Positions 9,095 through 35,018 of a stretch of DNA of 48,488 bases are shown here, piece by piece (the first letter of the stretch is position 1; each line of letters starts with the position of its first letter). Origin of the DNA: Akkermansia muciniphila (lineage in GTDB: Bacteria > Verrucomicrobiota > Verrucomicrobiia > Verrucomicrobiales > Akkermansiaceae). Below the pieces are notes generated by a model. It had not been told where the DNA came from, searched no databases, and was given only the letters and a program-made list of their open reading frames with translations. The stretch spans positions 1 to 48,488 of the forward strand of contig CAMCYK010000016.1 in assembly GCA_945883695.1 (NCBI GenBank), given 5' to 3'. The translations under genes were made by a program, and so were the position numbers.

Positions 9095-9143
9095 CGGAGT
9101 CAGGGTGCGGGTGGTTGAAACGGGACGTGTCGTGGAACAGGAG

Positions 9144-9223
9144 CGTGTACTGGACCGCGGACTTCAGTCCGCTCGAAATGCAAGGCCGACACGAGCGGAC
9201 TGAAGTCCGCGGTCCAGTACACG
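9144..9223. repeat. REPIN-like perfect inverted repeat inside the MoxR/DUF58/BatA operon
   Basis: Two 32-bp arms (9144-9175 and 9192-9223) are exact reverse complements around a 16-nt loop. Each arm has its own internal hairpin (GCGGACTTCAGTCCGC). This doublet of REP units in opposite orientation is the architecture called a REPIN. It lies in the 136-bp gap between the DUF58 and batA genes, where the transcript would carry a very stable stem that may change stability or relative expression. Copies or half copies occur at 2840 and 48426. Confidence 0.9.
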
Positions 9224-9230
9224 CAGCCCC

Positions 9231-10163: not shown

Positions 10164-10193
10164 GGGAGATAGGTCTTGAGAGACGGCTGAGAC

Positions 10194-11201: not shown

Positions 11202-11281
11202 ATCCCGGGCCATACGCCGTGGCCCGGCGGCAAATTGCAGGGAATGAAATGCGATGCGTGATTTCTCCGGCATCGGGCCTC

Positions 11282-16327: not shown

Positions 16328-17851
16328 TCATTTGGCCTTGGGATTCCTTTTGTTGCGCGCCTTGCCGCCCTGCGGCGGAGTCAAGCCGTCATCGGGTTGG
16401 TTGGAAAGTCGCCACGGGTCCCCGAGGCGGCGCATCTCGGCGAGGAGGAGCGCCCGCATTTCCGCGAGCTTGGCGGCGTGCCGCGGGTCGCCGGCGAGGT
16501 TGACCTGGTGCTTCGCCGGCGGGGCCCCGGTGAGGGCGGCGACCTTCGGGTCATGGTGTCCGGCGAGGAATTCGTGGGGATTGTCCTTGAGGTTGAAGAG
16601 CTGGGTCTCGCGCGTGCCGGGGGATTCGTATTCGATGAGCTTCCAGTCGCCCCGTTTGACGCAGCGCATGCCCGGCTTGGCGCCACCGTTGTAAACGCCG
16701 TAGAGCGTGTCCCGGATGCTTTGTTCCTCGCCGAACAGGACCGGCTTGAAGCTGCCGCCCTCGTTGCTATCCGGCGACGTGACACCGGCGAGGTCGCAGA
16801 AGGTGGCGAGGAGGTCGCCGAGGTAAACGTTGCCGGGGGCGCGGACGCCGGGCTTGATGCCCGGGCCCTTGACGATCATCGGCACGCGCCAGGTGTGCTC
16901 GTAGAGGTTCTGCTTCCCCTGCAATCCGTGGCGGCCGATGGCCATGCCGTGGTCGGCGGTGTAGAAGATATACGTGTTCGCGAGTTCTCCCGTTTTCTCG
17001 AGCCTCGCGAGGACGCGGCCGATCTGGATGTCGATGTTCTCCGAGCAGGCGTATTCGCGGCCGATCTCGTTGCGGATCGTCGCCTCGTCGCGCCGGTTCC
17101 ACACGCCGCTGACCGCCACCTCGTCGCGGACGTCCATGTGGCTGTTGTCGAAGGGGTGCGCGGGCAGCCAGTTCGGCGGCAGCGGCGCTTGCTTGGGATG
17201 GGCGGGCGGCGCGGCCGACTTGTCCTTGTGGTTGGCGGCACCGTACTTCGCGAGCAATTCCGGAGTCCCGTCGCGGACATCATGGGGATGCGAGAAGCCG
17301 AAGTAGATGAAGAACGGCCTCTCGTCCTTCTTCGCTTGCCGCTCGCCGAGGTAATCGAGCACCCGGTCGGCATGCCACGCGCTGCCGGTTTCGCGGGTGC
17401 CGCCGCGCTTCGTCTGGTCGTGGACGACGCTGAACTGCCGGTTCGCGGCGGCGTAGCTGTTGCCCTGCTTGCAGGTGCGCATGGTGGCGTACCCGGCGCG
17501 GTTGAAGACGGCACCCACGGTGTTCTTTTCGAGGTCCGGCGGGCAAGCGGCCGCACCCGGGCCGATCGGCAGGTGCCAGACCGTGCGGCCGCTCATGATC
17601 ATGTGCCGCGAGGGCGTGCAGACCGCGCCGCTGAAGGACCCCATGTGGTAGGCGCCGTCGATGACCATGCCGCCGGCGGCGAGGCGGTCGATGTTCGGCG
17701 AATCCAGGGTGGATTGCGGGTTGTGGAACTTGAAATCGAAGGGCGACTGGTCGTCGACGAGAATGAAGAGAATGTTAGGCCGGCGCGAGTCCGCGGCATC
17801 GGACGGGACGGCAAGGGCGAAGGCTGCCAGCAAGGCGGGGAGATGTTTCAT
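16328..17851 (-). CDS. Exported S1-type sulfatase (operon gene 10)
   Basis: 507 residues with signal peptide (MKHLPALLAAFALAVPSDAA). Hydrolyses sulfate esters in the periplasm if matured. Calcium-site motif LVDDQSPFDF, sulfatase signature CTPSRHMIMSGR with formylglycine precursor C78, later YTADHGMAIGRHGLQGKQNLYEH (metal D/H pair) and RVPMIVKGPG. The expected GKWH block is not of the usual form: the corresponding stretch reads MRTCKQGNSYAA, so its substrate pocket differs from its neighbours. A formylglycine-generating enzyme is needed but is not in this window. Last gene of the ten-gene run; 33 bp after the preceding sulfatase. C-terminal tail is basic (GGKARNKRNPKAK). Confidence 0.9.
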   Translation of the reverse strand: MKHLPALLAAFALAVPSDAADSRRPNILFILVDDQSPFDFKFHNPQSTLDSPNIDRLAAGGMVIDGAYHMGSFSGAVCTPSRHMIMSGRTVWHLPIGPGAAACPPDLEKNTVGAVFNRAGYATMRTCKQGNSYAAANRQFSVVHDQTKRGGTRETGSAWHADRVLDYLGERQAKKDERPFFIYFGFSHPHDVRDGTPELLAKYGAANHKDKSAAPPAHPKQAPLPPNWLPAHPFDNSHMDVRDEVAVSGVWNRRDEATIRNEIGREYACSENIDIQIGRVLARLEKTGELANTYIFYTADHGMAIGRHGLQGKQNLYEHTWRVPMIVKGPGIKPGVRAPGNVYLGDLLATFCDLAGVTSPDSNEGGSFKPVLFGEEQSIRDTLYGVYNGGAKPGMRCVKRGDWKLIEYESPGTRETQLFNLKDNPHEFLAGHHDPKVAALTGAPPAKHQVNLAGDPRHAAKLAEMRALLLAEMRRLGDPWRLSNQPDDGLTPPQGGKARNKRNPKAK

Positions 17852-17884
17852 GAGGCGGGTCGGGTCGAAGGTTTCCAGGGTGCG

Positions 17885-19240
17885 TCACTTTTTCGGTTCC
17901 AAGGCCGGCCAGCGCGCGGATTTCCCGGCGGGCTGCCTCGCGCCGGGCGTGCTGCGGCCTTGCTCCACCTGGCGCTTCATCAGTGCCGCCAGTTTCTCGA
18001 CGACCTCCGGGTTTTCCCGGGAAACGTCCTTGGTCTCGCCGAGGTCGGATTCGAGTTGGTAAAGTTCGCGTTTCCCGCCCTTGAGGAAAACGAGTTTCCA
18101 CGGCCCTTGGCGGATGGCGAGGTCGCCTCCCGCCGACTGGTGGACGGTCGCCTCGCGCAGGGGGGGCCTGGCGGTGCCGGTCAGGGCGGGCAGGATGCTC
18201 ACGCTGTCCTCGCCGGCGTTGTCGGGGAGTTGCTCGCCGATGATGTCAGCGCACGTGGCGATGAGGTCGTTGAGGCAGATCGTCTCGGCGCACACCGCGC
18301 CGGGTGCGATCCTCCCCGGCCAGCGGGCGAGGAAGGGCACGCGGTGCCCGCCTTCGTAAATGCTGGATTTCGAGGCGCGCAGCGGGGCATACGGCCGTCC
18401 CGCCGCGCCGTTGTCGGCGGTGGCGATCACCAGGGTGTTGCCGGCGAGGCCCTTCCTCTCGAGGGCGTCGAGCAATTGTCCGAGCATGTGGTCGCCCTGA
18501 TAGACCCAGTCGCCGTACGCGGGATCCTTCTTCACCTCGTCGACCGCGCCGCTCTTGCCGGCGAATTCGGGTGCCGGGACGACCGGGGTGTGCGGCGGGC
18601 ACATCGGGAAATAGAGGAAGAACGGCTTGCCGGCCTCGCGCCCCTCGATCCACTCGACCGCCTTGGCGATCATGCGCGGCTGGTTCTCCACGTCCTTGAC
18701 GTTCTCGACCACGCGATCCTGCGCGAGGATCGTGCCGATATTGCGGGCATGGGTGAACCCGTAAAAGTAGTCGAAGCCGAGGTCGTTCGGCCCGCTGAGC
18801 AGGCGCGAGCCGACGGGAACAAGCTTCTGATCTCCCGGCTTGCCCTCCCATTTCATGCCGAGGTGCCATTTGCCGATGCAGGCGGTCTGGTAGCCGTGCT
18901 GTTTGAGGAACGACGCGACGGTGAGGCGCGATTTCGGAATGATGGGCGGGTTGTAGGTGGTGAGCACTCCGTATTGCCCGATGCGCGAGGGATAGCGCCC
19001 GGTCAGCAAGCCGTAGCGGGTAGGCGTGCAGACGGCGGAGGCGGAGTGGGCGTCGGTAAAACGCATGCCCGCGGCGGCCAGCCGGTCGATGTTCGGGGTT
19101 TTGAGCCGGCTGGCGGCGCGATAGCTTTGCGGCTCGCCGTAGCCCATGTCGTCGAACAGCACGAAGACGATGTTGGGTTTTTCCGCGGCGGGTGCCTTGC
19201 AACCGAGGGCGCAAACGAGGAGGGCGGCGAGGATTCTCAC
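17885..19240 (-). CDS. Exported S1-type sulfatase (operon gene 9)
   Basis: 451 residues starting at GTG 19240. N-terminal hydrophobic signal MRILAALLVCALGCKAPAA; the ALGC at 11-14 is an imperfect lipobox, so a lipoprotein is possible. Calcium site FVLFDDMGYG, signature CTPTRYGLLTGR with C71 as formylglycine precursor, GKWHLGMKW, and ATADNGAAG. The GYGEP and FTDAHS text resembles arylsulfatase-A/N-acetylgalactosamine-6-sulfatase-like members, but substrate cannot be assigned. 28 bp after operon gene 8. Confidence 0.92.
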   Translation of the reverse strand: MRILAALLVCALGCKAPAAEKPNIVFVLFDDMGYGEPQSYRAASRLKTPNIDRLAAAGMRFTDAHSASAVCTPTRYGLLTGRYPSRIGQYGVLTTYNPPIIPKSRLTVASFLKQHGYQTACIGKWHLGMKWEGKPGDQKLVPVGSRLLSGPNDLGFDYFYGFTHARNIGTILAQDRVVENVKDVENQPRMIAKAVEWIEGREAGKPFFLYFPMCPPHTPVVPAPEFAGKSGAVDEVKKDPAYGDWVYQGDHMLGQLLDALERKGLAGNTLVIATADNGAAGRPYAPLRASKSSIYEGGHRVPFLARWPGRIAPGAVCAETICLNDLIATCADIIGEQLPDNAGEDSVSILPALTGTARPPLREATVHQSAGGDLAIRQGPWKLVFLKGGKRELYQLESDLGETKDVSRENPEVVEKLAALMKRQVEQGRSTPGARQPAGKSARWPALEPKK

Positions 19241-19268
19241 GGGGCGGCGGGTCGGGTGGTTTCAGGGA

Positions 19269-20810
19269 TCAACGGGTATTGCGTGGGAAGCGGCGCACTT
19301 CGACGTCATTCTTTTGCGGCGCGCCCGGCGTGCTGCGACCGTCGGTGATGAGCTTTTCAAGCAGCGCTTTCATGGAAGCGACTTTTTCAGGCATCGAGGC
19401 GGCGAGGTTCTTCGTTTCGCCGAGGTCGTCGGCGAGTTGATAGAGATGGACGGGTTGCTTTCCCTGCGCGCTCGCGGTGCGCCCCGGCGGGCCGAGGATC
19501 AGCTTCCAAGGGCCGTCCCTCACGGCGGGAACGCCCGTTGCCGAGCAGTTCACGGCATGCGCGCGCACCGGTTGGTCCCCGCCCGTCAGCAGCGGGACCA
19601 GGCTGAAGCTGTCCTCGCCGGCGTTGTCGGGAAGTTTCGCTCCGAGGACATCGGCGAAGGTGGCCATGAGGTCGGCCTGCTGCACGAGCTGGTGGTTGAC
19701 GCTGCCGGGTTGGACGCGACCCGGCCAGCGCACGATGAAAGGAACACGGTGGCCGCCTTCCCACACGTCGAACTTGATCCCGCGCAAAGGGCCGCTCGGG
19801 AAGTGGCCTTGCCCTTGGAGACCCGGCACATCGGCGGGGGGCGCGCAACCGTTGTCGCTGGTGAGGATGACCAGCGTGTTGTCCGCCGCCCCGCTTTGTT
19901 CGAGGGCGGCGAGCACACGGCCGATCATGGCGTCGGTTTCCATCACAAAGTCGCCGTAGGGGCCGATACCGCTCTTGCCCTGCCACTCCTGGTTGACGGC
20001 AATCGGCGTGTGCGGGGAGGTCAGCGGCAGGTAAAGGAAGAAAGGCGGGTCGCCCGCCGCAAGCTCGCGGATCCATCCGCACGCGCGGTCGATGATGGCG
20101 GGCAGGATCGGCTCGAGCTTCCAGCCCGCCAAGGACGGCCCCTGAACACTGGCCTGCTGCCGTTCGAGCAGGTTCGCGGGCAGGAATTCGCTGGGAATGC
20201 CGACCGTGCGCCGGTTCTCGATGAAACAGAAGGGCGGCCAGTTGGGAACGCAGGTACCGAAATAGCGGTCGAACCCGCGGTCCACGGGGCCGCCGGGAAT
20301 ATCGCGGGAGAACAACTCCCTCCAAAACGCCTTCTGCTCGCCGCTGGCGGGGCCGTTCTTCTTCGCGGGTCCTGACAGGAGATCCCCCTTCCCTTCCGGG
20401 ACCGGCCAGTCCCAACCGAGATGCCACTTGCCGGCCATGGCCGTGCGGTAGCCATGCTGGCGGACGAGACTGCCGAGAGTCAGGCGGTCGGGAGCGATCA
20501 GGGAGTCCTTCCAGGTTCCGACAATGCCGCTTTGCAGCCGGCTGCGCCAATGGTAGCGGCCGGTGAGCATCGAATAGCGCGAGGGCGAACACACGCTCGA
20601 CGAGGAGTGGGCGTCGGTGAACCGCATGCCTTGGGCGGCGAGCTGGTCGATGTGGGGCGTGGGGATTTTGCCGCGCCCGGGATTGTAGCAAGCGACGTCG
20701 CCGTAGCCGAGGTCATCGGCGTAGATCAGCAGGATGTTGGGCTTCGCCGCCGCGGCAGTCAGGGACAGGACGAACACAGAGGCGGCGATGGCGAGCAATC
20801 CGGGTTTCAT
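19269..20810 (-). CDS. Exported S1-type sulfatase (operon gene 8)
   Basis: 513 residues with a clear signal peptide (MKPGLLAIAASVFVLSLTAAAA). Calcium site [10 protein letters not shown], signature CSPSRYSMLTGR with C74, GKWHLGWDW, and LTSDNGCAPP. Closely similar in layout to operon gene 2 (27309-28805): shared [42 protein letters not shown] and GWDW segments, which points to gene duplication within the operon. 52 bp downstream of the MocD/MocE fusion. Confidence 0.93.
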   Translation of the reverse strand: MKPGLLAIAASVFVLSLTAAAAKPNILLIYADDLGYGDVACYNPGRGKIPTPHIDQLAAQGMRFTDAHSSSSVCSPSRYSMLTGRYHWRSRLQSGIVGTWKDSLIAPDRLTLGSLVRQHGYRTAMAGKWHLGWDWPVPEGKGDLLSGPAKKNGPASGEQKAFWRELFSRDIPGGPVDRGFDRYFGTCVPNWPPFCFIENRRTVGIPSEFLPANLLERQQASVQGPSLAGWKLEPILPAIIDRACGWIRELAAGDPPFFLYLPLTSPHTPIAVNQEWQGKSGIGPYGDFVMETDAMIGRVLAALEQSGAADNTLVILTSDNGCAPPADVPGLQGQGHFPSGPLRGIKFDVWEGGHRVPFIVRWPGRVQPGSVNHQLVQQADLMATFADVLGAKLPDNAGEDSFSLVPLLTGGDQPVRAHAVNCSATGVPAVRDGPWKLILGPPGRTASAQGKQPVHLYQLADDLGETKNLAASMPEKVASMKALLEKLITDGRSTPGAPQKNDVEVRRFPRNTR

Positions 20811-20862
20811 ACGGGCATTCCAGATTCCATGAGCGCAAAAAGTGACACGCGTTGTCCAACCC

Positions 20863-22350
20863 CTAATTTCCGCCGCCCTTCGCCCGCGGGTTGTTCACCA
20901 TCTTCAGCTCATGGCTCCCGCGGTGCTTGACCACGTTCAACCAGATCCTGCCGTGGCGCTCCTCGATCGGATAGGTTGCCAGCCCGCGGCAGACCGGGGC
21001 CCTCGCCGGCGAGCCGTCCCCCAGGTTGAAGCGGCCGTTGTGTTTCGGGCACTCGATGATCTTGCCCTTCACCAGACCCGTCGCCAGATGGGTCTTGCCG
21101 TGGGTGCAGATTCCGTCCGTGGCATGCAGGACACCTTCGTCATCGCGCGCGACGGCGTAAGTCCGCGTGCCGTGATCGAAGCGGATCACTTCCTCGATGC
21201 CCAGGTCGCCTCCCGCACAGACCTCCAGCCAGCCCCCGCCATCGGGCTCCGCGTCGGATGCCGCCGGCCGGGCTTCCATCCGGGCGACCGCTTCCGGCAA
21301 CCGGCGCTTCACGTGATACGCCGGATCCTTCACCTGCCGGAGCACTGCGGGAATGATCTCCTTCCACGTTTCCCACAATCCCGGATAAGGCTCCGGACAA
21401 TCCTCCTTGACCGCCTCGTGGAGTACCGGGAGCGCGTGATATGGCACCAGGGGGAACATGTGGTGCTCGAGGTGATAGTTCATGTTCCAATAAAGGAAAC
21501 GGTTCAGACGGTTCATCCTCACCGTCCGGCAGTTCAAGCGGTGGTCCAGCACGTTCTCCGCCAGTCCGCTGTGCTGGGTCAGCCCGTAGACCGACATCAG
21601 CCAGCTCCCGAACAGGTTCGGCAGCCCGACAAACATCAGCGGCAGGATGCTGCGGGTGCCGATCGCCAGCGCCACCACCCCGGCATAAATCGCGAGGTGG
21701 ATCCGCGCCTTGCGGGAGATCTTCCCGAACTCGCCCGCGGGGATGAACTGCATCTCATCCTCCGCCATTTCCCCGAACGAGTGCATCACCAGCCGCCGGA
21801 AATACTTCGGGTAAACCGGCAGCCCGAAGAGCGAGAGGATCATGCCCTTCACATTCGGCGGACGCGGCACCGCGATCTCCGGATCGCGACCCACGATGAT
21901 GGTGTCGCTGTGATGGCGCGTGTGGCTCCACCGCCACACCGTCGACTCCCGCATCACCATGAACGACGCCACTTCGTAGAGGGCGTCGTTCATCCAATCG
22001 GTCCGGAACGCCGTGCCGTGGCCCGCTTCATGCCAGCGCGAGTCGGCGGTGGAAGCATAGAGCGCGGCGTAGGCCAGATACGGCGGCACCGCCCACCACG
22101 AACCCCACAGCATCCCGGTAAGAACGGCCGTTCCGAGAATCAGGCCGAACCAGACGGCCGTATCCCGGATCGCCGGTCCGTCCTTGCGGACCAGCAGGTG
22201 CCGCAGGGTCTCGCGCGGAACCGGGCACTGGTACCAATCCGCCTCGGCCAGGCCGAGCTCGACCGCGCGATCCGAATTCTCGCGGTTCAACGTGTAGCCC
22301 AAGCGGTCGGGGGGGCGTGAAAACGTCGGGGTTTCGTGAGCGTGATCCAT
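20863..22350 (-). CDS. MocD-MocE fusion: membrane di-iron oxygenase (desaturase fold) plus Rieske ferredoxin
   Basis: 495 residues in the cytoplasmic membrane. Residues of about 40-330 are a fatty-acid-desaturase-fold di-iron enzyme with three histidine boxes HEAGH (107-111), HTRHH (143-147), HLEHH (293-297), plus the accessory H260 (TQHSG), and several membrane helices. Residues of about 375-480 are a Rieske [2Fe-2S] ferredoxin: C415-x-H417, sixteen residues, C434-P-K-H437. In Rhizobium, MocD and MocE are separate proteins of a ferredoxin oxygenase complex that demethylates the rhizopine 3-O-methyl-scyllo-inosamine. Here electron carrier and oxygenase are one chain. Start is firm: AAGGAG stands 8 bp before the ATG. 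It is 12 bp after a MocC-like gene and near a MocA-like gene. No MocF-type reductase is visible. A lipid desaturase is the alternative. Confidence 0.87.
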   Translation of the reverse strand: MDHAHETPTFSRPPDRLGYTLNRENSDRAVELGLAEADWYQCPVPRETLRHLLVRKDGPAIRDTAVWFGLILGTAVLTGMLWGSWWAVPPYLAYAALYASTADSRWHEAGHGTAFRTDWMNDALYEVASFMVMRESTVWRWSHTRHHSDTIIVGRDPEIAVPRPPNVKGMILSLFGLPVYPKYFRRLVMHSFGEMAEDEMQFIPAGEFGKISRKARIHLAIYAGVVALAIGTRSILPLMFVGLPNLFGSWLMSVYGLTQHSGLAENVLDHRLNCRTVRMNRLNRFLYWNMNYHLEHHMFPLVPYHALPVLHEAVKEDCPEPYPGLWETWKEIIPAVLRQVKDPAYHVKRRLPEAVARMEARPAASDAEPDGGGWLEVCAGGDLGIEEVIRFDHGTRTYAVARDDEGVLHATDGICTHGKTHLATGLVKGKIIECPKHNGRFNLGDGSPARAPVCRGLATYPIEERHGRIWLNVVKHRGSHELKMVNNPRAKGGGN

Positions 22351-22362
22351 AACATCTCTCCT

Positions 22363-23184
22363 TTATCCGCGGAGACCGCACAACTTCATGATCCTGTCGG
22401 TCTCGCGGTACGCTTCCTCCACCCATTCGACGATCCGCGACGGATCCGGGGAGTATTCCAGTTCGATCGAAACCACCCCGTCGATCTCCAGTTCCTTGAT
22501 CGCGTTCAGATAGGGTGAAAATTTGACCACGCCGCGCCCCGGCGGCAGATCGCCATGGACCTTGCCGTCGCAATCGCTGATGTGCACATGGATCGCCTTG
22601 CCCCTGAGATTCGCCAACTCTTCCGGCCCCACATCGGCCAGGGTGAGGTGCGAAATGTCGATGTTCGCGCGGACCTGCGGGTGGTCGCAGTCGTCGATGA
22701 ACCGCACCATTTCCCTGACGTTGTTGAGCAAGCTCAGACGGAAAGGCTCCAGCTCCAGCGCGACCTCCACCCCCTTGCGGCCGGCGTGGTCGCCGATCTC
22801 GCGGCAGGTGTCGATGCCCCATTGCCACTGCGCCTCGGGCGGGATCACCTCCCGCTGCCAGATGTACTCGCCGAGCACCAGCAGGATATTCCTCGCGCCC
22901 CAGTCCGCCGCGAGATCGATGAACTTCTTGCAGCGCTCCACATGGAACTCGCGGACCGGTTCGTTGAAATCGATCAGCCCCGCGGCGACGACCGGCAGCG
23001 AGATGATCGGCAGGTTTCTCCTCTCACAGACCGCTGCGATGTTCCGCCGTTCGTCGTCGCCGACCTTCATCGCCTCGATGAAGATATCCACACAGTCGAA
23101 CCCGATGCGGGCGATGTGTTCCAAGCCGGTGATCCGGTCCACCCCCGCCTGCCCGAACGCGCTGTCGATGATTCCCAGTTTCAT
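22363..23184 (-). CDS. MocC/IolE-like TIM-barrel sugar isomerase/epimerase
   Basis: 273 residues from ATG 23184; the frame is open to 23310 but that overlaps the end of the preceding gene and is not family-like. Cytosolic xylose-isomerase-like TIM barrel with probable metal ligands E144/E146 (ALELEPF), D176 and H179 (NIDISHL), H199/H201 (AIHVHISD), E241/E243 (SIELEY). Related folds include IolE (inosose dehydratase), MocC and sugar 3-ketoepimerases. It lies between a MocA-like dehydrogenase (17-bp gap) and the MocD-MocE fusion (12-bp gap), so it probably handles the keto-sugar or inosose made by the dehydrogenase. Exact reaction is inference. Confidence 0.85.
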   Translation of the reverse strand: MKLGIIDSAFGQAGVDRITGLEHIARIGFDCVDIFIEAMKVGDDERRNIAAVCERRNLPIISLPVVAAGLIDFNEPVREFHVERCKKFIDLAADWGARNILLVLGEYIWQREVIPPEAQWQWGIDTCREIGDHAGRKGVEVALELEPFRLSLLNNVREMVRFIDDCDHPQVRANIDISHLTLADVGPEELANLRGKAIHVHISDCDGKVHGDLPPGRGVVKFSPYLNAIKELEIDGVVSIELEYSPDPSRIVEWVEEAYRETDRIMKLCGLRG

Positions 23185-23201
23185 GTTCTGTCGTTTGCCA
23201 T

Positions 23202-24254
23202 TCAGGAAATGATCTCTTGTAGCGCCACCGACCGCCGCTCCCTCACGCTCAGTTCCGCCGCCTCGATCAACGCGAGGGTCCGCAGGTTGTCCTCGCCGGC
23301 GAGGACGCACGGGTCACCGCTGGCCAGGGCTTGCAACAAGTCGCCCATGGTCCCGGCAAAGGCGTCCGGAAACCAGGCACCTTCGAGCGCGGCCACCTGC
23401 ATCGCCGGATCGCCCTTGCGCCCGTATCGCATCGTCGAGGGCGAGGTGTAGGGGTCCTTGCACCAGCCGATCTCACCGATCGCGAGGCCGTCGAGTCCCT
23501 CGATCCGCCACTCGATCCGGATCTCCCCCGGAGCGCCCTCTCTCACCGGTCCGGTCCAGACATCGTCGATGATCACCGCCCGCATTCCGTCGGCATATTC
23601 CAGCACGTAGGTGCAGATCCCGTCCTGATGGGGAAACCCGGTCCGCGGATCCGGCCTCACGCTGCAGAACAAACGTTCCGGATCCCCGAACCAGTGGCGC
23701 ATGCAGTCGAGGTGGTGGATCGACATGATCTTCATCGTCGCGCCTCCCGTCTCCGCCTGCCACGGCTGCCAGTGGGGGACGCCACGCATGTCGATCGTCG
23801 CGAACACCATGTCGCCCAGCTCACCGCGCCCGATCAAACCCTTCGCCGCCTTCACCGACGGATCGTGGCGCATGTTCTGGTTCACGGCCAGCAGGATGCC
23901 CGCCTCCCGGCAACATTTCACCAGGTCCTGCGCGACGGCGAAATCGAGGGCCAGCGGCTTCTGGGCGAGAATCGCCTTGGCCGTTCCCTTGGCGCAAGCC
24001 GCACGGATCAGGTCCGGCTGATGCTGCGGCGGCACCGCGATATCCAGCACCTCGAGCGACGGGTCGCCGAGCAACGTGTCGTAATCCTCATGCACCACGG
24101 GGATCCCGAAACGTTCCGCGACCGCCGCGGCCTTCGCTTTCGTCCGTGAAGCGATCGCCGCCACCTCGTAGCCGGCTTTGGCATAGCTCACCAGATGGCA
24201 CTCGCTCACGATGAAGCCGCTGCCCAGCACGCCGATCCGGTAGTTTCTCCTCAT
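23202..24254 (-). CDS. Gfo/Idh/MocA family oxidoreductase (cytosolic)
   Basis: 350 residues without signal peptide. N-terminal Rossmann fold GVLGSGFI (G8-G13), the family lysine K99 in AQKPLAL (the usual EKP has Q here), and H180/H181 in SIHHLDCMRHW, the catalytic region. NAD(P)-dependent dehydrogenase of a sugar or cyclitol by family. Tightly packed: 9 bp after a sulfatase gene and 17 bp before the MocC-like gene. In rhizopine catabolism MocA is the equivalent dehydrogenase, so a cyclitol or keto-sugar-forming step is the best guess. Confidence 0.9.
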   Translation of the reverse strand: MRRNYRIGVLGSGFIVSECHLVSYAKAGYEVAAIASRTKAKAAAVAERFGIPVVHEDYDTLLGDPSLEVLDIAVPPQHQPDLIRAACAKGTAKAILAQKPLALDFAVAQDLVKCCREAGILLAVNQNMRHDPSVKAAKGLIGRGELGDMVFATIDMRGVPHWQPWQAETGGATMKIMSIHHLDCMRHWFGDPERLFCSVRPDPRTGFPHQDGICTYVLEYADGMRAVIIDDVWTGPVREGAPGEIRIEWRIEGLDGLAIGEIGWCKDPYTSPSTMRYGRKGDPAMQVAALEGAWFPDAFAGTMGDLLQALASGDPCVLAGEDNLRTLALIEAAELSVRERRSVALQEIIS

Positions 24255-24263
24255 CGCGTTTGC

Positions 24264-25832
24264 CTACTTGGGCAGGCCCTCCGGGACTTTGTAGCGGCCG
24301 CGGAGATCCTTGTAGCGGGTTTTCATCTCCGCGAAGACCTCGGCGTAGGCGGGGTCGGCGTGGACGCTGCGCTGTTCGTTTGGATCCTCGGCGAGGTCGA
24401 AAAGCTGCCACTCGTCGGTGCGCGGGAGGTGGAAGATCTTGTGACGGCCGGTGCGGACGCCGTCGTGGGCGGCGACCTGGTGGACGCCCTCGCCGGAGTA
24501 GAAATAGTAGATGGAGTCGCGCCAGTCCGCGGGGGCCTTGCCTTCGTTCTTGAGGATGGGGAGCAGGCTGCGGCCCTGGATGTCGGCGGGGATCTCGAGC
24601 CCGGCGGCATCGAGGAAGGTGGGGGCGTAGTCGATGTTCTGGATGAGCGCCGCGGGGCGGATGCCGGGCTTCACGACACCCGGCCAGCGGAGGAGGAAGG
24701 GCATGGTGAGGGATTCCTCGAACATCCAGCGCTTGTCATACCAGCCCTTCTCGCCGAGGTAGAAGCTCTGGTCGGACGAGTAGATGACGATGGTGTTTTC
24801 CGCGAGGCCGGCTTCGTCGAGGTAGGCGAGCAGACGGCCGACGTTCTCGTCCACGGCGCGGATGGTGCGGAGATAGTTCTTGATGTATCTCTGGTATTTC
24901 CAGCTCGTGATCTCCTTATCACTGAGCTTGCCGGCGGCGAGATCGTCGAGGAACCGCTGTTGGCGCGGGCCGTAGGCGAAATCGAACGAACGCTGCTGAA
25001 GGGGCGTCATACGGCCATACTCGCTGTTCGGCAGGCCGTCCATCAAGCCGGCGGCGGCGGGCGGGGCATCGTGGAAGAACATGTCCCAGCCCCAGTAGAA
25101 GTGGTCGGAGATGGTCATGGCCTGCTTCTTGAGGACCTGGCTGCGGTTGGCGTAGTCGTCGAAGAGGGTCTCGGGCTCCGGCAGGTCGATGTCCTCGAAC
25201 ATCATGAGATGGCGCTCGGCGGGCATCCAGTTGCGGTGCGGGGCCTTGTGCTGGCTCATCAGAAGGAACGGGCGGTCCTTGTCGGCGCGGTTCTCGAGCC
25301 ATGCGAGCGTCTTGTCGGTGATGATGTCGGTGACGTAGCCCTCGAAGCGCTCGGTGGTGCCGTCCATCTGGATGAAGTCGGGGTTCCAGTAGCTGCCCTG
25401 GCCCGGGAGGATTTCCCAGTGGTCGAAGCCGACCGGATCGGTGCCGAGGTGCCATTTGCCGATGACCGCGGTCTCGTAGCCGGCGGCGCCGAGGTACTTG
25501 GCGACGGTCGGTTGGGAGCTGTCGAAGCGCGAGCTGTTGTCGAGGAAGCCGTTGACGTGCGAGTGCTTGCCGGTGAGCACGCAGGCGCGCGACGGGCCGC
25601 AGATCGAGTTGGCGCAGAAGGAATTCACGAACAAGGCGCCTTGCTTGGCGAGGCGGTCGATGTTCGGTGTCTGGAAATGCTTGGCATAGCGGCTGTTGCC
25701 GTATGCGGTGATCGCCTGGAGGGCGTGGTCGTCGGAGAAAATGAACAGGATGTTCGGCTGCCTCGCTTTCTCCGCAGCGAGCGGGGCGACGGCAAGGACG
25801 AGGGTGGCAAGGCAGGTCGGGAAGGTGCGCAT
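24264..25832 (-). CDS. Exported S1-type sulfatase (operon gene 4)
   Basis: About 522 residues from ATG 25832, where a signal peptide (MRTFPTCLATLVLAVAPLAA) begins; the frame is open to 25907. Calcium site IFSDDHALQAI, signature CGPSRACVLTGK with C78 as formylglycine precursor, GKWHLGTDP, and YSSDQSFYLGEKGWYDKRW, where Q replaces the common N/H after the aspartate. The CGPSRA...LTGK and SDQ/H...GEKGWYDKRWM form is typical of N-acetylglucosamine-6-sulfatase and related S1_11/S1_8-like members, so it belongs to a different subfamily from its five neighbours. Subfamily placement is by recall and not certain. Confidence 0.92.
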   Translation of the reverse strand: MRTFPTCLATLVLAVAPLAAEKARQPNILFIFSDDHALQAITAYGNSRYAKHFQTPNIDRLAKQGALFVNSFCANSICGPSRACVLTGKHSHVNGFLDNSSRFDSSQPTVAKYLGAAGYETAVIGKWHLGTDPVGFDHWEILPGQGSYWNPDFIQMDGTTERFEGYVTDIITDKTLAWLENRADKDRPFLLMSQHKAPHRNWMPAERHLMMFEDIDLPEPETLFDDYANRSQVLKKQAMTISDHFYWGWDMFFHDAPPAAAGLMDGLPNSEYGRMTPLQQRSFDFAYGPRQQRFLDDLAAGKLSDKEITSWKYQRYIKNYLRTIRAVDENVGRLLAYLDEAGLAENTIVIYSSDQSFYLGEKGWYDKRWMFEESLTMPFLLRWPGVVKPGIRPAALIQNIDYAPTFLDAAGLEIPADIQGRSLLPILKNEGKAPADWRDSIYYFYSGEGVHQVAAHDGVRTGRHKIFHLPRTDEWQLFDLAEDPNEQRSVHADPAYAEVFAEMKTRYKDLRGRYKVPEGLPK

Positions 25833-25903
25833 GGCGGGTGAAGGAACGGGTTTCAGGCGGGCAACGGCACGGTGTGGCTCGAAGCGATCCCGATAGGATG
25901 TCG

Positions 25904-27250
25904 TCAAGGGTCGAGCGCCGGATTGGGGAAGATGGGCGAGGGTTCGCGGTGGTCGTCCATCAGCTTGATCATCGCGGCGACGCGGTCGGGCTCCTGGCCG
26001 GCGAGGTCCTTGGTCTCCCCGGGATCGCGACCGAGGTGGTAAAGCTCGGGTTTGCCATTCTTGGACAGGTTGTAGTGCACGAGCTTCCAGTCGCCCTGGC
26101 GCAGCGCCCGGCGGGTCCCCTGTTCGTGGAACTCCCAGTAGAGAAAATCGTGCGCGCGTTGTGCGCCCGTGCCGGTGAGCGTCGGCAGGTAGGAGATACC
26201 GTCGAGGCCGGCGGGGGCATCGACCCCGGCGAGCTCGCAGGCGGTTGGCAGGAAATCCCAGAACGCGCCGACGTGATCGCGGGTGCCCGGCTTGCGGATC
26301 CCGGCGGGCCAGCGGGCGATCATCGGCACCCGGATCCCCCCTTCGTAAAGATCGCGCTTGCCGCCACGGAGCGGACCGGAGGAGTTGAACATCTCCGGCT
26401 TGTAACCGCCCTCGAAGTGGGGGCCGTTGTCGCTGGTGAAAATGACCAGGGTCTCGCGCGCGATGCCCTTCTTCTCCAGCTCGCCAAGCAGGCGGCCGAC
26501 GTAACCGTCCAGCGCCTCGACCATCGCGCGGTAATGCGCGGCGGGATCCTTGACCGGGGTGTAGTGGGCATTTCCCGGCTTCATTCCGGCCCCTCCCGGC
26601 ACGGAACCTTCCGGCCCCAGCACGGCGGCGTGGGGAATCGGATAGGAGAGGATCATCAGGAACGGGCCCTCGGTCTCCCGGATGAATCGCCCGGCCCGCG
26701 CGGTGTAAAGTTCGGCGTCGTAGGACTTTCCGTGGTGGAGGTGATTCCCCTCAAGTTCGACCCGCTTCTCCTGATCGTAAACGAAGCGCGGATAGCGGTG
26801 GTGACCGTCGCGGTGGTCGGTCGTGCCGTAGAACACGTCGAAACCCTTTTCCAGCACCCGCCGGGGGTTCTGCGTGTTCCCCCCGACGCATGACTTGCCG
26901 ATCATGGCCGTGCGGTAGCCCGCGCGTTTCAGCAAGGTCGCGACCGTGAGATCCTCCGGGTCGGGCCGCAATTCGAACTCACCGTTGCCGCGCAAGCGGG
27001 TGCTGCCGGTGTCCAGGCCGGTCATCAGGGCGCTGCGCGCCGGCGCGCAGACGGTCGAACCCGAATAATGGCGGGTGAAGCGGATGCCATCCGCCGCCAG
27101 CTTGTCGAGCACCGGCGTGCGGATCGTCTTTTGTCCGTAGCAGCCGAGATCGCCATAGCCGAGATCGTCGGCGATGATGAAGAGGATGTTCGGTTTCGCC
27201 GCCGCCAGAGGCAAAGCGCACGCGATAAGAATGGACAGGCATTTCACCAT
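25904..27250 (-). CDS. Exported S1-type sulfatase with altered GKWH block (operon gene 3)
   Basis: 448 residues from ATG 27250, chosen for its signal peptide (MVKCLSILIACALPLAAA); the frame is open to 27403. Calcium site [10 protein letters not shown], signature CAPARSALMTGL with C68, and FTSDNGPHFEGGYK. The segment that is GKWHLG in most S1 sulfatases reads GKSCVGG here: the lysine stays but the active-site histidine is a cysteine. Some S1 subfamilies also lack this histidine, so the enzyme may be active on a distinct substrate. 58 bp after operon gene 2 and 71 bp before gene 4. Confidence 0.92.
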   Translation of the reverse strand: MVKCLSILIACALPLAAAKPNILFIIADDLGYGDLGCYGQKTIRTPVLDKLAADGIRFTRHYSGSTVCAPARSALMTGLDTGSTRLRGNGEFELRPDPEDLTVATLLKRAGYRTAMIGKSCVGGNTQNPRRVLEKGFDVFYGTTDHRDGHHRYPRFVYDQEKRVELEGNHLHHGKSYDAELYTARAGRFIRETEGPFLMILSYPIPHAAVLGPEGSVPGGAGMKPGNAHYTPVKDPAAHYRAMVEALDGYVGRLLGELEKKGIARETLVIFTSDNGPHFEGGYKPEMFNSSGPLRGGKRDLYEGGIRVPMIARWPAGIRKPGTRDHVGAFWDFLPTACELAGVDAPAGLDGISYLPTLTGTGAQRAHDFLYWEFHEQGTRRALRQGDWKLVHYNLSKNGKPELYHLGRDPGETKDLAGQEPDRVAAMIKLMDDHREPSPIFPNPALDP

Positions 27251-27308
27251 GGTTCGGACAGGATTGGAGATCGAATGGCTGATCCGCAAAGAGTGATCTA
27301 GTGATCCA

Positions 27309-28805
27309 TCACTTGGCAAGCCGGGGCGCGGAGTGGCCCTGCCCGCGGATCTTTTCCAGCAAGGCCTGGAGTTCGGCGACGCGATCCGGGTGCTCGGCGG
27401 CAAGGTTGTGTTTCTGCGCGATGTCGGTCCTCAGGTTGTAGAGCTCGACCGGTCCTTTGTCATCGGGCTTGTAGCCGTGGCGGACTTCCCATTCCCGGTT
27501 GGCACCCGAGACGTATCCGCTTGCCGCGTCCACCAGCAACCAATCGCCATGGCGGATGGCATACCCCTTCGGATTCGTGTTGTGGATATGGGTGGTGCGG
27601 ACGGATTCGACCTCGCCTTTGAGCAGGGGCAACAGGTCGTGGGAGTCCTCGGCGGCGTTGGCGGGCAACTCGTGCCCGAGCGCGGCGGCGAGGGTGGCCA
27701 TCAAGTCGATCTGCGATACCAGCGCGCCGGAGACGGCACCGGCCTTGGCGACGCCGGGCCACCGGATGATCGTCGGCACGCGATGGCCGCCCTCGTAGAT
27801 GTCGCGCTTCAGGCCGCGCAGCGGGTGGGACGACCAATGGCCGAACTTCCCGTCGCGGGCATAGGCGTATTTCTCCGGCCCGTTGTCGGCGGAGAAAATG
27901 ACGATCGTGTTCCCCGCCTGGCCGGAATCCTCCAGCGCCTTGAGGAGCTGTCCGATCGAGTGATCGGTCTCCACCACGAAGTCGCCGAAAGGCCCGGCCT
28001 TCGATGTGCCGTCGAACTCGTCGTTCGGGATGATCGGCGCGTGCGGCGAGGGATAGGCGAAGTAAAGGAAGAACGGCTTTTCGGAATCCTTTTTCGAACG
28101 GATGTATTCAACACCGCGGCGGGTGGTCTCGGGGATATTCTGATAGGGATCCCAGCCGGTGACCATCGGGCCGGGACGGCATTCCCAAGCGCCCTCCTTG
28201 ATGGCCTTCCATTTCGCGGTGTCCATCATGGTGTCGGGGGCCTTGAGCACCTTTTCGTCCTCGATCCAGCAGTAGGGCGGGAAATTGATGACCGTGTCGC
28301 CGAAATAATGGTCGAAACCGTGCGCGAGCGGGCCGTCGGGTATGGACTTCGACCAGTCGAAGTCATCGGGCCTGATCCCGGCCGGCTTCGTGCCTGGCTT
28401 GCGGATCGCGTCCCAGTCCCAGCCGAGATGCCACTTGCCGATGCAGGCGGTCTGGTAACCCCGGGCCTGGAGCATCTCCGGAAGCGTCAGGCGTTCGGGT
28501 TTGAAAACCGACTTGCCGAAGGCGTTGACGATGCCGTGGAAGTCCCGCCAATGGTGACGCCCGGTGAGCATCGCGTAGCGCGACGGCGTGCAGATGCCGG
28601 AAGAGCTGTGGGCATCCGTGAAGCGCATGCCCTGCGCGGCGAGCTGGTCGAGATGAGGCGTGGGAATCTTGGAATCCGGGTTGTAGCAACCGAGATCCCC
28701 GTAACCGAGGTCGTCGGCGTAAAGGAGGAGGATGTTGGGCTTTTCCGCCGCGCGCAGGACCGCGGCGGTCGCGAGCAGCAGGAACAGGGATGTCAATCGT
28801 TTCAT
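27309..28805 (-). CDS. Exported S1-type sulfatase (operon gene 2)
   Basis: 498 residues from ATG 28805, which opens a clean signal peptide ([20 protein letters not shown]); the open frame extends to 29315 over the previous gene. Calcium site [10 protein letters not shown], signature [12 protein letters not shown] with C72, [21 protein letters not shown], and [10 protein letters not shown]. Sequence landmarks are shared with operon gene 8, suggesting paralogy. 56 bp downstream of the Tat-exported Gfo/Idh/MocA gene. Confidence 0.94.
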
Positions 28806-28861
28806 AGGTGGTTTCGAGCCAACGCCGACCGCAAGAAGGAGCGCTCCGGTTGAGGGAGACT

Positions 28862-30127
28862 TCACGCGTATTCCCAGCCCTGGCGCGGCTTGCGGGTGGT
28901 CAGGGCATTGGCCTCGGCATCGCCTGAAAACTGCTCCTTGGCGGGATCCCAGGTCAGCTTGCGCCGCAGCTTGTAGCCGATGTTCGCGAGATGGCAGACC
29001 GTCGCCGTGCGGTGGCCGGTTTCCGCCGTGCAGACCGGCTCCCCGCGGCTCTTGATGCATTCCAGCCAGTTGCGGAGGTGATCCGTGGCCGGGCCGGGCT
29101 TTGCACCCGGCGCGGTCGCGAGAATCTCCGGCGGATCGCTTTTGAGAAGATTCCGGTCCACCCGGATGGTGCCCGCCGTGCCCTCGAAGGTGCAGCCGCT
29201 GGGCCCGCCATGGAACATCTCCACGCCGTTGGCGTAGGTGAATTTCAAACCCGTCTCGCCTTCGGCCGGTGGCTCGATCGAGACCGGGCCGCTGGCGTCC
29301 ATGCCCATCGCCCACTGGGCGATGTCGAAGTGGTGCGCCCCCATGTCGGCCAGCATCCCGCCGGCGTACTCCTCATATTTGCGGAAGGCCGGAAAGTGGT
29401 TGTGGATCCCTTTCGGGCAGAGGTCCTCGTGATAGCCGCGCTGCGGCGCGGGGCCGAGCCAGAGCTCCCAGTTGACGTTCGCCGGTTGCTCCTGTTCCGG
29501 GAGATCGCAGGGGATCGGCGACCCGCCCACCCCAATCCGGATGGTCTTCAGCTCGCCCAGCTTGCCCGCCCGGATCGCCTCCACCGCCTGGCGGAACCGG
29601 CCGCCAAACTCGCTGCGCTGCTGGCTGCCGGTTTGGAACACGAGCTTGTTTTTCCGGACGGCATCCACCAGCAAGCGTCCTTCGGCGATATTCTGGGTAA
29701 GCGGCTTCTCGCAGTAGATATCCAGCTTTTTCGCGGCGGCGGCCAGCGCCGGATGGACGTGCATGTGGTCGGGCGTCATGATCACCACCGCGTCGAGATC
29801 GTCCCGTCCGAGCAGTTCCCGGTAATCGACATAGGTCGCACAACCCTTGTACTGCCCGGACTTCACGTCCTCGGCATAGCGCTTCTCCACCACCTCCTTC
29901 GCCCGCGCGAGCCGGGTTCCCTCGACCTCGCACACCGCGACAATCCGGACGCCGTCCACCCGCAAGGCATGATCCATCACCCCGAAGGCGCGCTTGCCGT
30001 AGCCGATGAACGCGAGATTCAGCCGGCCGTTCGCGGGCGCGGCTTTCAGCAGCGCCGGGCCGAGGGCGGCGGTGGCGGCGGCACCGGTGAGGAAACGGCG
30101 GCGGGACAAGGAGGTGAGGATTTGCAT
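28862..30127 (-). CDS. Tat-exported Gfo/Idh/MocA family protein (operon gene 1)
   Basis: 421 residues. Twin-arginine signal at the start ([23 protein letters not shown]), Rossmann segment [12 protein letters not shown], catalytic lysine K141 in YCEKPLT, and H265/H266 in [13 protein letters not shown]. The Tat route implies folding with its nucleotide cofactor in the cytoplasm and export as a holoenzyme. Exported Gfo/Idh/MocA members include glycoside-cleaving enzymes that use bound NAD (GH109-like) and many of unknown role, so it may act on the periplasmic glycan with the sulfatases. It is the first gene of the ten-gene minus-strand run. Confidence 0.92.
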
Positions 30128-30340: not shown

Positions 30341-31045
30341 ATGAGCGACGCCCACGGCCCCATCGTGCTTCTCACCGGAGCTTCCAGCGGCATCGGCCGC
30401 GCCCTCGCGGTGATGCTGGTGGATCGCGGCGTGACGGTGCTCGGCGTGACCCGCCGGCCGGCCGCCCTCCCGCCCGGCGTGGTGCCGGTGCCGGCCGACC
30501 TGACCCAGCGGGAGGACATCCTCGCGGTCTTCCAGCAGCTCGGCCGGATCAACGCCCTGGTGAATTGCGCCGGCGTCGCCTACCTCTCGCGGATCATCGA
30601 CGGAAATCCCGCCGACTGGGAGGAAATGTGGCGCGTCAACGTGATGGCGCTCACCCTCTGCTGCCAGCTTTCCCTCCGCCACTTTCCGCGCGAGGGCGGT
30701 CGCATCGTCAATGTCTCGTCGATGAGCGGCCACCGCGTCCCGCCGACCGGCGGATTCTACGCGCCGACCAAGTTCGCGGTGCGGGCGGTCACCGACGCCC
30801 TGCGCGCCGAATTGAAGTCCGCCGGCTCGCCGGTCCAGGTCGCCTGCGTGTCCCCCGGCTTTGTCGACACCCCGCTGCTCGACCAGTATTTCCGCGGCCG
30901 CGAGGAGGTCCTGCAGAAGACCCGCGAAAGCATGACGATGCTGGCCCCGGAAGACGTCGCCGCCGCCATCCTGACCATCCTCGAAGCCCCGACCCACGTC
31001 GAGATCGGCGACATCCTGCTGCGAAGCAGCGACCAGCGGATGTGA
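30341..31045 (+). CDS. Short-chain dehydrogenase/reductase (SDR)
   Basis: 234 residues, classical cytosolic SDR. Cofactor motif TGASSGIG (12-19), NCAG at 75-78, catalytic S127 (NVSSMSG), Y140 and K144 (YAPTK), and PGFVDTPL after the active site. A basic residue pair (TRR) after the second strand favours NADP(H), by inference. The substrate is unknown. It is divergent from the sulfatase operon and is followed 74 bp later by a small secreted protein gene, so it may or may not belong to the same pathway. Confidence 0.92.
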   Translation: MSDAHGPIVLLTGASSGIGRALAVMLVDRGVTVLGVTRRPAALPPGVVPVPADLTQREDILAVFQQLGRINALVNCAGVAYLSRIIDGNPADWEEMWRVNVMALTLCCQLSLRHFPREGGRIVNVSSMSGHRVPPTGGFYAPTKFAVRAVTDALRAELKSAGSPVQVACVSPGFVDTPLLDQYFRGREEVLQKTRESMTMLAPEDVAAAILTILEAPTHVEIGDILLRSSDQRM

Positions 31046-31544: not shown

Positions 31545-32336
31545 ATGACCGCGCGCGACCCCTATCTCGACCGCTTCTCCGGGATCGGCCGGCTCTACGG
31601 CAGCGCCGCGCTCGAAAAATTCCGCCGCGCCCATGTCGCGGTCGTCGGGATCGGCGGCGTCGGTTGCTGGGCGGCCGAATGCCTCGCGCGCTCCGGGATC
31701 GGCAAACTCACGCTGGTCGATGCCGATGATCTCTGCGTCACCAACACCAACCGCCAGATCCACGCGCTCGACGGGACCTATGGCAAGCCGAAGGTCGGGG
31801 TGATGGCGGAACGCCTGCGCGCCATCCAGCCGGAGATCGTGGTCACCGAGCGCCTGGAGTTTCTCTCCGACCGCAATGTCGATGGCTTTCTCGACGGCGG
31901 CTTCGACGCGGTGATCGACGCGATCGACGCGGTCCGCGCCAAGTGCGTCCTGCTCGCCCGCTGCCGCGACCGCGCCATCCCGGTCATCGCCTGTGGGGCG
32001 GCCGGCGGCCGGCGCGATGTCACCTGCATCCGGGTGGCGGATCTCGCCCGGACCAAGGACGACGCTCTCCTGATGGCGGTCCGCAAGCGTCTGCGCGACG
32101 AGCACGGCTTCCCGAAAGCGCGGCCCGGCGAGAAGATCCGCAAGTTCCACATCGAGGCGGTCTTTTCCGACGAACCGCCGCTGTTCCCCACCTGCGACGG
32201 CGGCGTCAGCCACGACAAACCGGAAGAGGTTCCGGCGGGCATCCGCTGCGACGCCGGCTACGGCACCGCCACCCACGTGACCGCGGTCTTCGGCATGATC
32301 GCCGCGGGACGGGTGTTGGAGAAACTGGCCGGGTAG
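31545..32336 (+). CDS. tcdA: tRNA threonylcarbamoyladenosine dehydratase
   Basis: 263 residues of the E1-like ThiF/MoeB superfamily, matching TcdA (CsdL/YgdL). It uses ATP to cyclise t6A37 of ANN-reading tRNAs to ct6A. Motifs: nucleotide-binding VVGIGGVGCWAAE, LVDADDLCVTNTNRQ with the arginine/asparagine of the adenylation site, AIDAVRAK, and the C-terminal PTCDGGVSHDKPEEVP with the family cysteine region. Length is normal. It stands 108 bp after the small secreted protein gene and is convergent with the tRNA-Asp unit; a complex repeat lies just past its stop. Confidence 0.95.
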   Translation: MTARDPYLDRFSGIGRLYGSAALEKFRRAHVAVVGIGGVGCWAAECLARSGIGKLTLVDADDLCVTNTNRQIHALDGTYGKPKVGVMAERLRAIQPEIVVTERLEFLSDRNVDGFLDGGFDAVIDAIDAVRAKCVLLARCRDRAIPVIACGAAGGRRDVTCIRVADLARTKDDALLMAVRKRLRDEHGFPKARPGEKIRKFHIEAVFSDEPPLFPTCDGGVSHDKPEEVPAGIRCDAGYGTATHVTAVFGMIAAGRVLEKLAG

Positions 32337-34885: not shown

Positions 34886-35018
34886 GGCGGAATCATGCGC
34901 CGGCGGGCGGACGGTGGAATCCCAAAGCGTGGACTCCAACCAATCCGTTACCATCGGCCGTTTGCCGGCGTCGCGACTCCCCGCGAGCATGTCACTGGCT
35001 TGGAACAGGCCGATTCTT

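Follow-up and report, generated by a model that had tools for sequence, protein, structure and literature searches.

What could a bacterium gain from an operon that sets six sulfatases among relatives of the rhizobial moc genes? The question is raised by a 48,488-base contig (CAMCYK010000016.1, referred to here as the window) from an Akkermansia muciniphila genome of 6.3 Mb in 391 contigs. Ten window genes at 16,328-30,127 lie on the minus strand in the transcription order GfoTat, S6, S5, S4, GfoA, Iso, MocDE, S3, S2, S1, with intergenic gaps of 56, 58, 71, 9, 17, 12, 52, 28 and 33 bp. This layout agrees with the initial annotation of the locus, which had described ten minus-strand genes with gaps of 9-71 bp and suggested that they degrade a sulfated and O-methylated glycan or cyclitol. 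The genes encode six sulfatases (S1-S6), two Gfo/Idh/MocA dehydrogenases, one TIM-barrel isomerase and one desaturase-Rieske fusion, MocDE. Operon status was judged from spacing and strand. Guanine-cytosine (GC) content (62-67%) and third-position GC content (83-91%) are alike across all ten genes. A scan of both strands found no sigma-70-like promoter (shuffled sequences give an expectation of 1.7), which is weakly informative in this phylum. We read the operon, with a probability of about 0.5, as a catabolic unit of two modules: exported sulfatases with an exported Gfo-type dehydrogenase, and a cytoplasmic trio of GfoA, Iso and MocDE that would demethylate an O-methyl aldose.

MocDE carries an FA_desaturase domain at residues 84-329 and a Rieske domain at residues 374-461. 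The histidine boxes (H107, H111, H143, H146, H147, H293, H296 and H297) and the Rieske ligands (C415, H417, C434 and H437) are invariant in 41 aligned proteins. In pairwise comparison, the MocD half is 52-56% identical to seven mocD-position proteins from rhizobial, Acidiphilium and Nitratireductor plasmids, each encoded directly before a MocE-family ferredoxin gene. Identity of the window protein to plasmid proteins is 47-54% in the first 26 of 40 rows listed. Three other desaturases were compared, pairwise and not in a superfamily tree: identity is 30% for Phyllobacterium and 22% for the window genome's own C10 desaturase, and the alignment to a Roseibium desaturase spans 43 residues only. 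Because the MocD half is nearer to the mocD-position proteins, a lipid desaturase identity was rejected; the initial annotation had named a grouping with lipid desaturases as the result that would sink its proposal. The best NCBIfam model for the Rieske half is TIGR02377 'MocE family' at 107.2 bits. Since this is under the cut-off of 136.15, we class the protein as a relative whose function may resemble that of MocDE, and not as MocE itself. In a structure model with a mean predicted local distance difference test score of 73, the first half is helical and of membrane type, and the C-terminal part matches Rieske ferredoxins. For the remainder of the model, the best 50 of 355 matches (E up to 10) include one spanning match, 8xqw_M, with a TM score of 0.42.

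Is MocDE particular to this operon? At E 1e-100 a relative is present in 32 of 387 phylum genomes, and 462 candidate stretches encode one; therefore, the idea of a rare fusion specific to sulfatase operons was rejected. We named the best 80 of these stretches as relatives (63-80% identical by best segment). Their proteins continue beyond the matched part for more than 200 residues in 78 cases and for 194 residues in one, with one unresolved. The only extension scanned, that of L010, matched the NqrF model at 337 bits, above the cut-off of 295. This fused NqrF-type reductase differs from the separate gene for an oxidoreductase dependent on flavin adenine dinucleotide (FAD) that follows mocE on the plasmids. 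The window MocDE ends just inside the reductase domain, and S3 begins about 52-53 bases further. Judged from these alignments, the window protein is a shortened three-domain fusion that has lost its reductase domain. The MocD-MocE pair of the initial annotation thus holds as a desaturase-Rieske fusion with mocD-position kinship, and not as a plain pair. Because the fused reductase was lost, MocDE would have to draw electrons from a reductase made elsewhere. We considered whether this loss left the window MocDE a dead remnant. MocDE without the reductase also occurs in seven genomes of genus g13, as open frames of 473-518 residues. At E 1e-5, no such reductase was found in nine of 11 chosen genomes, including all seven g13 genomes with a short MocDE; one of the nine, G147, has its MocDE cut by a contig end.

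The genes around MocDE and its three-domain relatives (MocDEF) were compared in 88 loci, made up of 77 of the 80 best relatives (three shorter than 5 kb were dropped) and 11 added stretches. The loci are not independent, and many are truncated at the end of a contig. Genes were called with a home-made codon-score caller, their products were grouped into neighbour families by single-linkage clustering of BLAST matches, and each family was named from the Pfam domains of one or a few members. GfoA, Iso and MocDE occur together in 16 of the 88 loci, from Akkermansiaceae to an acidobacterial metagenome-assembled genome (L061), and this trio is a conserved unit. The GfoA partners beside MocDE are 61-85% identical. 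The commonest neighbour found was an aldose 1-epimerase (Aldose_epim), present in 30 loci and within 4.5 kb in 29 of them, followed by a TIM-barrel protein (24), a sugar transporter (Sugar_tr, 14), an aldo/keto reductase (8) and a creatininase (4). An AraC regulator was present in 22 loci, on the opposite strand in 20. Chosen examples also have glycosidases or lyases near MocDEF: a GH29 fucosidase and two GH43 in L151; GH35, GH43, PL11 and GH27 in L012; GH2 and a marginal GH43, which just passes the cut-off, in L010; and PL8 in L013. In three rhizobial and Variovorax cassettes that were fetched, the genes that come after a 48-49% identical GfoA encode an isomerase, an aldose 1-epimerase and a short-chain dehydrogenase/reductase, with genes for a sugar ATP-binding cassette transporter flanking one side; in Variovorax, a Rieske protein is encoded a few genes upstream.

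Corrinoid methyl-transfer genes lie within 10 kb of MocDE(F) in some of the 88 loci: URO-D in 10, RACo in six, DUF1638 in five, MtaB in four and a B12-binding protein in three, each cluster being identified from the Pfam domains of one to three members. RACo had 39 matches in 96 phylum genomes. With a mean genome size of about 3.3 Mb, taken by eye, chance would place it within 10 kb in about 0.2 of 88 loci; two of the six RACo loci, L036 and L074, are Acidobacteriota and lie outside the 96-genome sample. At L043:6535-16179, MocDEF sits within a set of URO-D, DUF1638, RACo, B12-binding protein and MtaB. The neighbours point to the removal of a methyl group from a sugar. Because an aldose 1-epimerase lies near MocDE(F) in 30 of the 88 loci, a methylated aldose is favoured over a cyclitol; this keeps the methylated substrate first proposed and narrows the choice between glycan and cyclitol.

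Orthologues of Iso at E 1e-40 were found in 35 of 254 family genomes. Beside Iso, 15 of these genomes have MocDE(F) (G000, G118, G158, G159, G176, G214, G218, G222, G229, G230, G232, G233, G234, G236 and G237), 15 have a PhyH-type 2-oxoglutarate dioxygenase, none have both and five have neither. In G159 the MocDE-Iso pair is split over two contigs, and in G214 MocDE is about 3 kb from Iso with two genes between. The PhyH genomes are thirteen g11 genomes, G090 and G225, with PhyH beside Iso/Gfo in loci that include L143-L146, L147 and L157; PhyH identity rests on Pfam in three of the 15 and on similarity in the rest, and the G200 match is in two pieces. The five with neither are G121 and G123, which have MocDE on other contigs, G219, whose MocDE copy is a broken remnant with stops, G235, and G224, where Iso runs into contig ends and the class is therefore undecided. 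On an Iso tree built without duplicate loci, rows with stops or hits under 300 bits, three gains or losses account for the PhyH label, compared to a mean of 12.2 changes for shuffled labels; the 'none' label includes G159. The g11 Gfo is a different one, about 31% identical to GfoA. In G090, from the window's own genus, PhyH adjoins a 60% identical GfoA and is one gene from Iso. Since G090 keeps its GfoA and the g11 genomes do not, G090 is the cleanest oxygenase swap. Because two unrelated oxygen-using enzyme types fill one slot, hydroxylation of a small soluble sugar is favoured, and the corrinoid genes suggest that the hydroxylated carbon is a methyl group.

The sulfatases raise a separate question, namely whether they belong with the trio. 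All six are of the formylglycine type, as first described: PF00884 is matched in six of the ten genes (E about 1e-35 to 1e-57) and each has a C-x-P-x-R motif (CTPSR, CTPTR, CSPSR, CGPSR, CAPAR and CTPSR). PF00884 is matched 85 times in the genome, with some genes counted in pieces, and sulfatase clusters are common there; even so, six sulfatases among ten genes make a real cluster. PDB searches with S1, S3, S4, S5 and S6 placed S6 and S3 near chains that include S1_15-type enzymes, S5 near 7an1/7ana and S4 near chains that include N-acetylglucosamine-6- and L-galactose-6-sulfatases; these nearest chains do not fix the SulfAtlas subfamily or the substrate. Orthologues of S1, S2, S3, S5 and S6 lie in one cluster each in the same-genus G093 (69-83% identical) and in G254 (75-79%), and the trio is absent from the stretches read. 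Identities are 80% (L153) and 79% (L180) for S1, 74% (L153) and 77% (L152) for S2, 69% (L153) and 75% (L180) for S3, and 83% (L153) and 78% (L152) for S5. L153, L177, L152 and L180 are large sulfatase clusters of these two genomes. No S4 orthologue was seen in the G093 and G254 clusters. Neither genome is among the Iso genomes (E 1e-40), and G093 has just a 31% identical desaturase.

A sulfatase lies within 6 kb of MocDE in seven of the 88 loci; L056 has one at about 9 kb, and L151, outside the 88, has two. As background, up to 14.7% of the window genome alone is within 10 kb of a sulfatase, using 81 of the 85 matches (second gene pieces omitted) and with right contig ends unclipped. Because of the trio-free G093 and G254 clusters and because the seven loci are not above this background, sulfatases are not a general partner of MocDE, and the idea of a constant partner was rejected. 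The initial annotation had named a lack of co-occurrence with sulfatases in relatives as grounds for abandoning its reading. The counts come close to that, and the reading survives only because an S6-type sulfatase is also found about 5 kb from MocDE in G118 (83% identical) and G116 (62%). In G118 (L001/L117) this orthologue lies downstream of GfoA-Iso-MocDEF. There, both GfoA and the S6 orthologue are broken across two frames, by sequencing error or decay. S6 is near MocDE in three of the 17 genomes that have both, the window included, compared to 0.085 expected for one S6 and one MocDE placed randomly in 4 Mb; without the window it is two of 16 (P 0.003). The 17 genomes were tallied by eye from slightly differing sets of 260 and 254. 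Sulfatases were also nearer to trio loci (4/16) than to other MocDE loci (3/72; Fisher P 0.019), where the loci are not independent and L121 and L122 are near-copies. The sulfatase-MocDE linkage is weak; the S6-type sulfatases of G118 and G116 and the trio-locus enrichment favour a local link.

The two modules could work together as follows. Outside the cytoplasm, exported S1-S6 and GfoTat would work on a sulfated glycan, and desulfation would expose the sugar. Export was judged by eye from hydrophobic N-termini and, for GfoTat, a twin-arginine-like SRRRFL motif. In the cytoplasm, MocDE, with its di-iron site and fused Rieske domain, would hydroxylate the O-methyl carbon of the free aldose, using electrons from a reductase encoded elsewhere. 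The resulting hemiacetal would break into sugar and formaldehyde. GfoA would then oxidise a hydroxyl and Iso would isomerise or epimerise the keto sugar, in either order. Since relatives carry most of the sulfatases or the methyl module apart, the synteny is best read as two modules that were joined.

Several results weigh against this reading. In the window genome, no close substitute was found for the lost reductase domain (best match 25% identical), the best match to a rhizobial third-gene flavoprotein is only 33% identical, and no formaldehyde dehydrogenase scores over its family cut-off. The window open reading frames scanned include no glycosidase and no sugar or glycan importer, genes that a polysaccharide utilisation locus would have beside its sulfatases. 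No proven rhizopine MocD is among the seven mocD-position references. MocDE is also patchy in its own genus, with a full-length copy in one of 17 other same-genus genomes, G091, which is without Iso. The trio-free sulfatase clusters and the sulfatase counts near MocDE belong here as well. The family name of MtaB refers to methanol, and because MtaA-like corrinoid clusters have been tied to methyl-sulfur and methyl-selenium (PMC10418091), the corrinoid sets need not serve a methyl ether.

Another possible explanation, which we think unlikely, is that the trio, with MocDE as an O-demethylase, came into a sulfatase operon as a passenger, and that the sulfatases and the trio have unrelated substrates. 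The clustering of five sulfatase orthologues without the trio in G093 and G254 would fit this, as would the 12 of 16 trio loci that have no sulfatase within 6 kb and the loss of the reductase domain at the junction of trio and S3. However, the trio is embedded in the operon, where its frames are intact and the gaps measure 9-17 bp, and the recurrence of an S6-type sulfatase near MocDE in G118 and G116 and the enrichment at trio loci would not be expected of a passenger. It is also possible, with still lower probability, that the oxygenase removes no methyl group but hydroxylates a carbon of a sugar or cyclitol, and that the Gfo and Iso proteins process the hydroxylated product. Enzymes of the MocD-like and PhyH types hydroxylate C-H bonds in general, and the best match of the PhyH scanned was ectoine hydroxylase, below the cut-off. 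Without a methyl group, however, the corrinoid methyl-transfer genes near MocDE(F) and a purU gene near a plasmid mocDEF are hard to explain.

The remaining two explanations concern the substrate class. An O-methyl cyclitol of the pinitol or rhizopine kind, as proposed for rhizobia, would suit the kinship of the MocD half, the iolG and TIM-barrel genes near the Nitratireductor mocDEF, and the best NCBIfam model of GfoA, IolG, which scores 83 of 355 bits. We consider it very unlikely since cyclitols have no anomers and an aldose 1-epimerase recurs both in the 88 loci and in the three rhizobial and Variovorax GfoA-isomerase cassettes. Least probable is a lipid desaturase with no connection to the glycan genes: the PF00487 family and the membrane-type first half of the structure model would allow it, but the identities given above, the recurrent sugar-gene neighbours and the PhyH enzyme that takes the MocDE slot in 15 genomes argue against it. 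A two-module unit with a probably demethylating trio is the reading that we retain.

Table 1. Genes of the sulfatase and MocDE operon in the window, in transcription order. Revised start positions are used for S6 (28805), S5 (27250), S4 (25832) and Iso (23184).
Gene	Position	Strand	Description
GfoTat	28862..30127	-	Gfo/Idh/MocA dehydrogenase with twin-arginine-like signal; PF01408/PF19051; nearest named models glycoside 3-dehydrogenases
S6	27309..28805	-	Sulfatase, PF00884; nearest PDB chains 9s7x, 9s85, 7oze and S1_15 enzymes
S5	25904..27250	-	Sulfatase, PF00884; nearest PDB chains 7an1/7ana
S4	24264..25832	-	Sulfatase with SGSH_C; nearest PDB chains 7ebp/9s8y/5g2v
GfoA	23202..24254	-	Gfo/Idh/MocA dehydrogenase without evident signal; gene 1 of conserved trio
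Iso	22363..23184	-	AP_endonuc_2, TIM-barrel sugar isomerase/epimerase-like; gene 2 of conserved trio
MocDE	20863..22350	-	FA_desaturase-type di-iron oxygenase fused to Rieske ferredoxin; C-terminal reductase domain of relatives absent
S3	19269..20810	-	Sulfatase, PF00884; near S1_15-type PDB chains
S2	17885..19240	-	Sulfatase, PF00884
S1	16328..17851	-	Sulfatase, PF00884; weak likeness to any solved sulfatase

PDB searches with GfoA and Iso gave generic relatives only, those of Iso being D-tagatose 3-epimerase and TM0416. Just upstream of the operon, on the opposite strand, are a short-chain dehydrogenase (30341-31045, +) and a ThiF-family gene (31545-32336, +). Elsewhere in the window are a multihaem cytochrome (Cytochrome_C7 / c3 matches) with a Big_9 domain (34854-37262, +), a row of BatA/VWA/PA14, DUF58 and MoxR genes (6266-11813, -) and a Rho factor with a long Lys/Ala/Pro-rich N-terminal extension (11282-13126, -).

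How does the operon compare with known systems? GfoTat resembles the BT_2158-type glycoside 3-dehydrogenases, which give its best NCBIfam match (NF058561 BT_2158_fam), but at 110.7 bits it is far under the cut-off of 750; its best PDB matches, 8tdf/8tdh, are dehydrogenases. The corrinoid methyltransferases (MtaB, MtaA/URO-D and RACo), which are oxygen-independent, are encoded in some MocDE(F) loci. No corrinoid methyl-transfer genes were found in the window open reading frames scanned, and the window genome has no RACo match at E 1e-20. The nearest precedents are the rhizobial mocDEF and the cytochrome P450 of porphyran users. Rhizopine is O-methylated, and no authentic rhizopine locus was found among the plasmids searched. 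According to PMC10107442, mocDEF are among the genes required for rhizopine catabolism. Like MocDE, the rhizobial system combines a desaturase-type oxygenase with a MocE-family Rieske ferredoxin, and the Acidiphilium mocDEF also lies near Gfo/Idh/MocA and TIM-barrel genes. In contrast, its genes are separate and the third encodes a separate FAD-dependent oxidoreductase, whereas MocD and MocE are fused in the window, relatives add an NqrF-type reductase, and the commonest neighbour found for MocDE(F) is an aldose epimerase. Seven annotated plasmid mocDEF loci were read, and in one of them, that of Nitratireductor, mocDEF is followed by purU (formyl-tetrahydrofolate deformylase). In L081, L084 and L134-L136, the gene after the rhizobial mocDEF-like genes carries the annotation ketopantoate hydroxymethyltransferase; enzymes of this type use a one-carbon folate.

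O-methyl groups on sugars hinder the use of glycans. The only described enzyme for O-demethylation of a free sugar that we recognised is the porphyran P450, which demethylates 6-O-methyl-D-galactose (PMC10033563). In the open-licence literature searched, we recognised no report of a Rieske/di-iron methyl-sugar demethylase or of sugars as substrates of a MocDEF fusion, which is weak evidence of absence. We tentatively propose, giving it somewhat less than even odds, that in Verrucomicrobiota and Acidobacteriota MocDEF fusions provide, alongside P450, a second and widespread means of oxygen-dependent demethylation of methylated sugars. They would be exchangeable with PhyH, paired in some loci with corrinoid genes to give aerobic and anaerobic routes for one and the same methyl group, and coupled in the window to desulfation. 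If true, this would account for a possible use of methylated plant and algal sugars by many Verrucomicrobiota and Acidobacteriota. The exchange of MocDE and PhyH beside one isomerase, together with the corrinoid genes, provides an enzyme set for testing one reaction via different chemistries, and three-domain relatives with their own reductase make an assay practical. The reaction proposed for MocDE is that of the P450, oxidative O-demethylation of a methyl sugar to sugar and formaldehyde in a sulfated-glycan setting, but it would be carried out by an unrelated oxygenase built from a desaturase-type domain and a Rieske ferredoxin.

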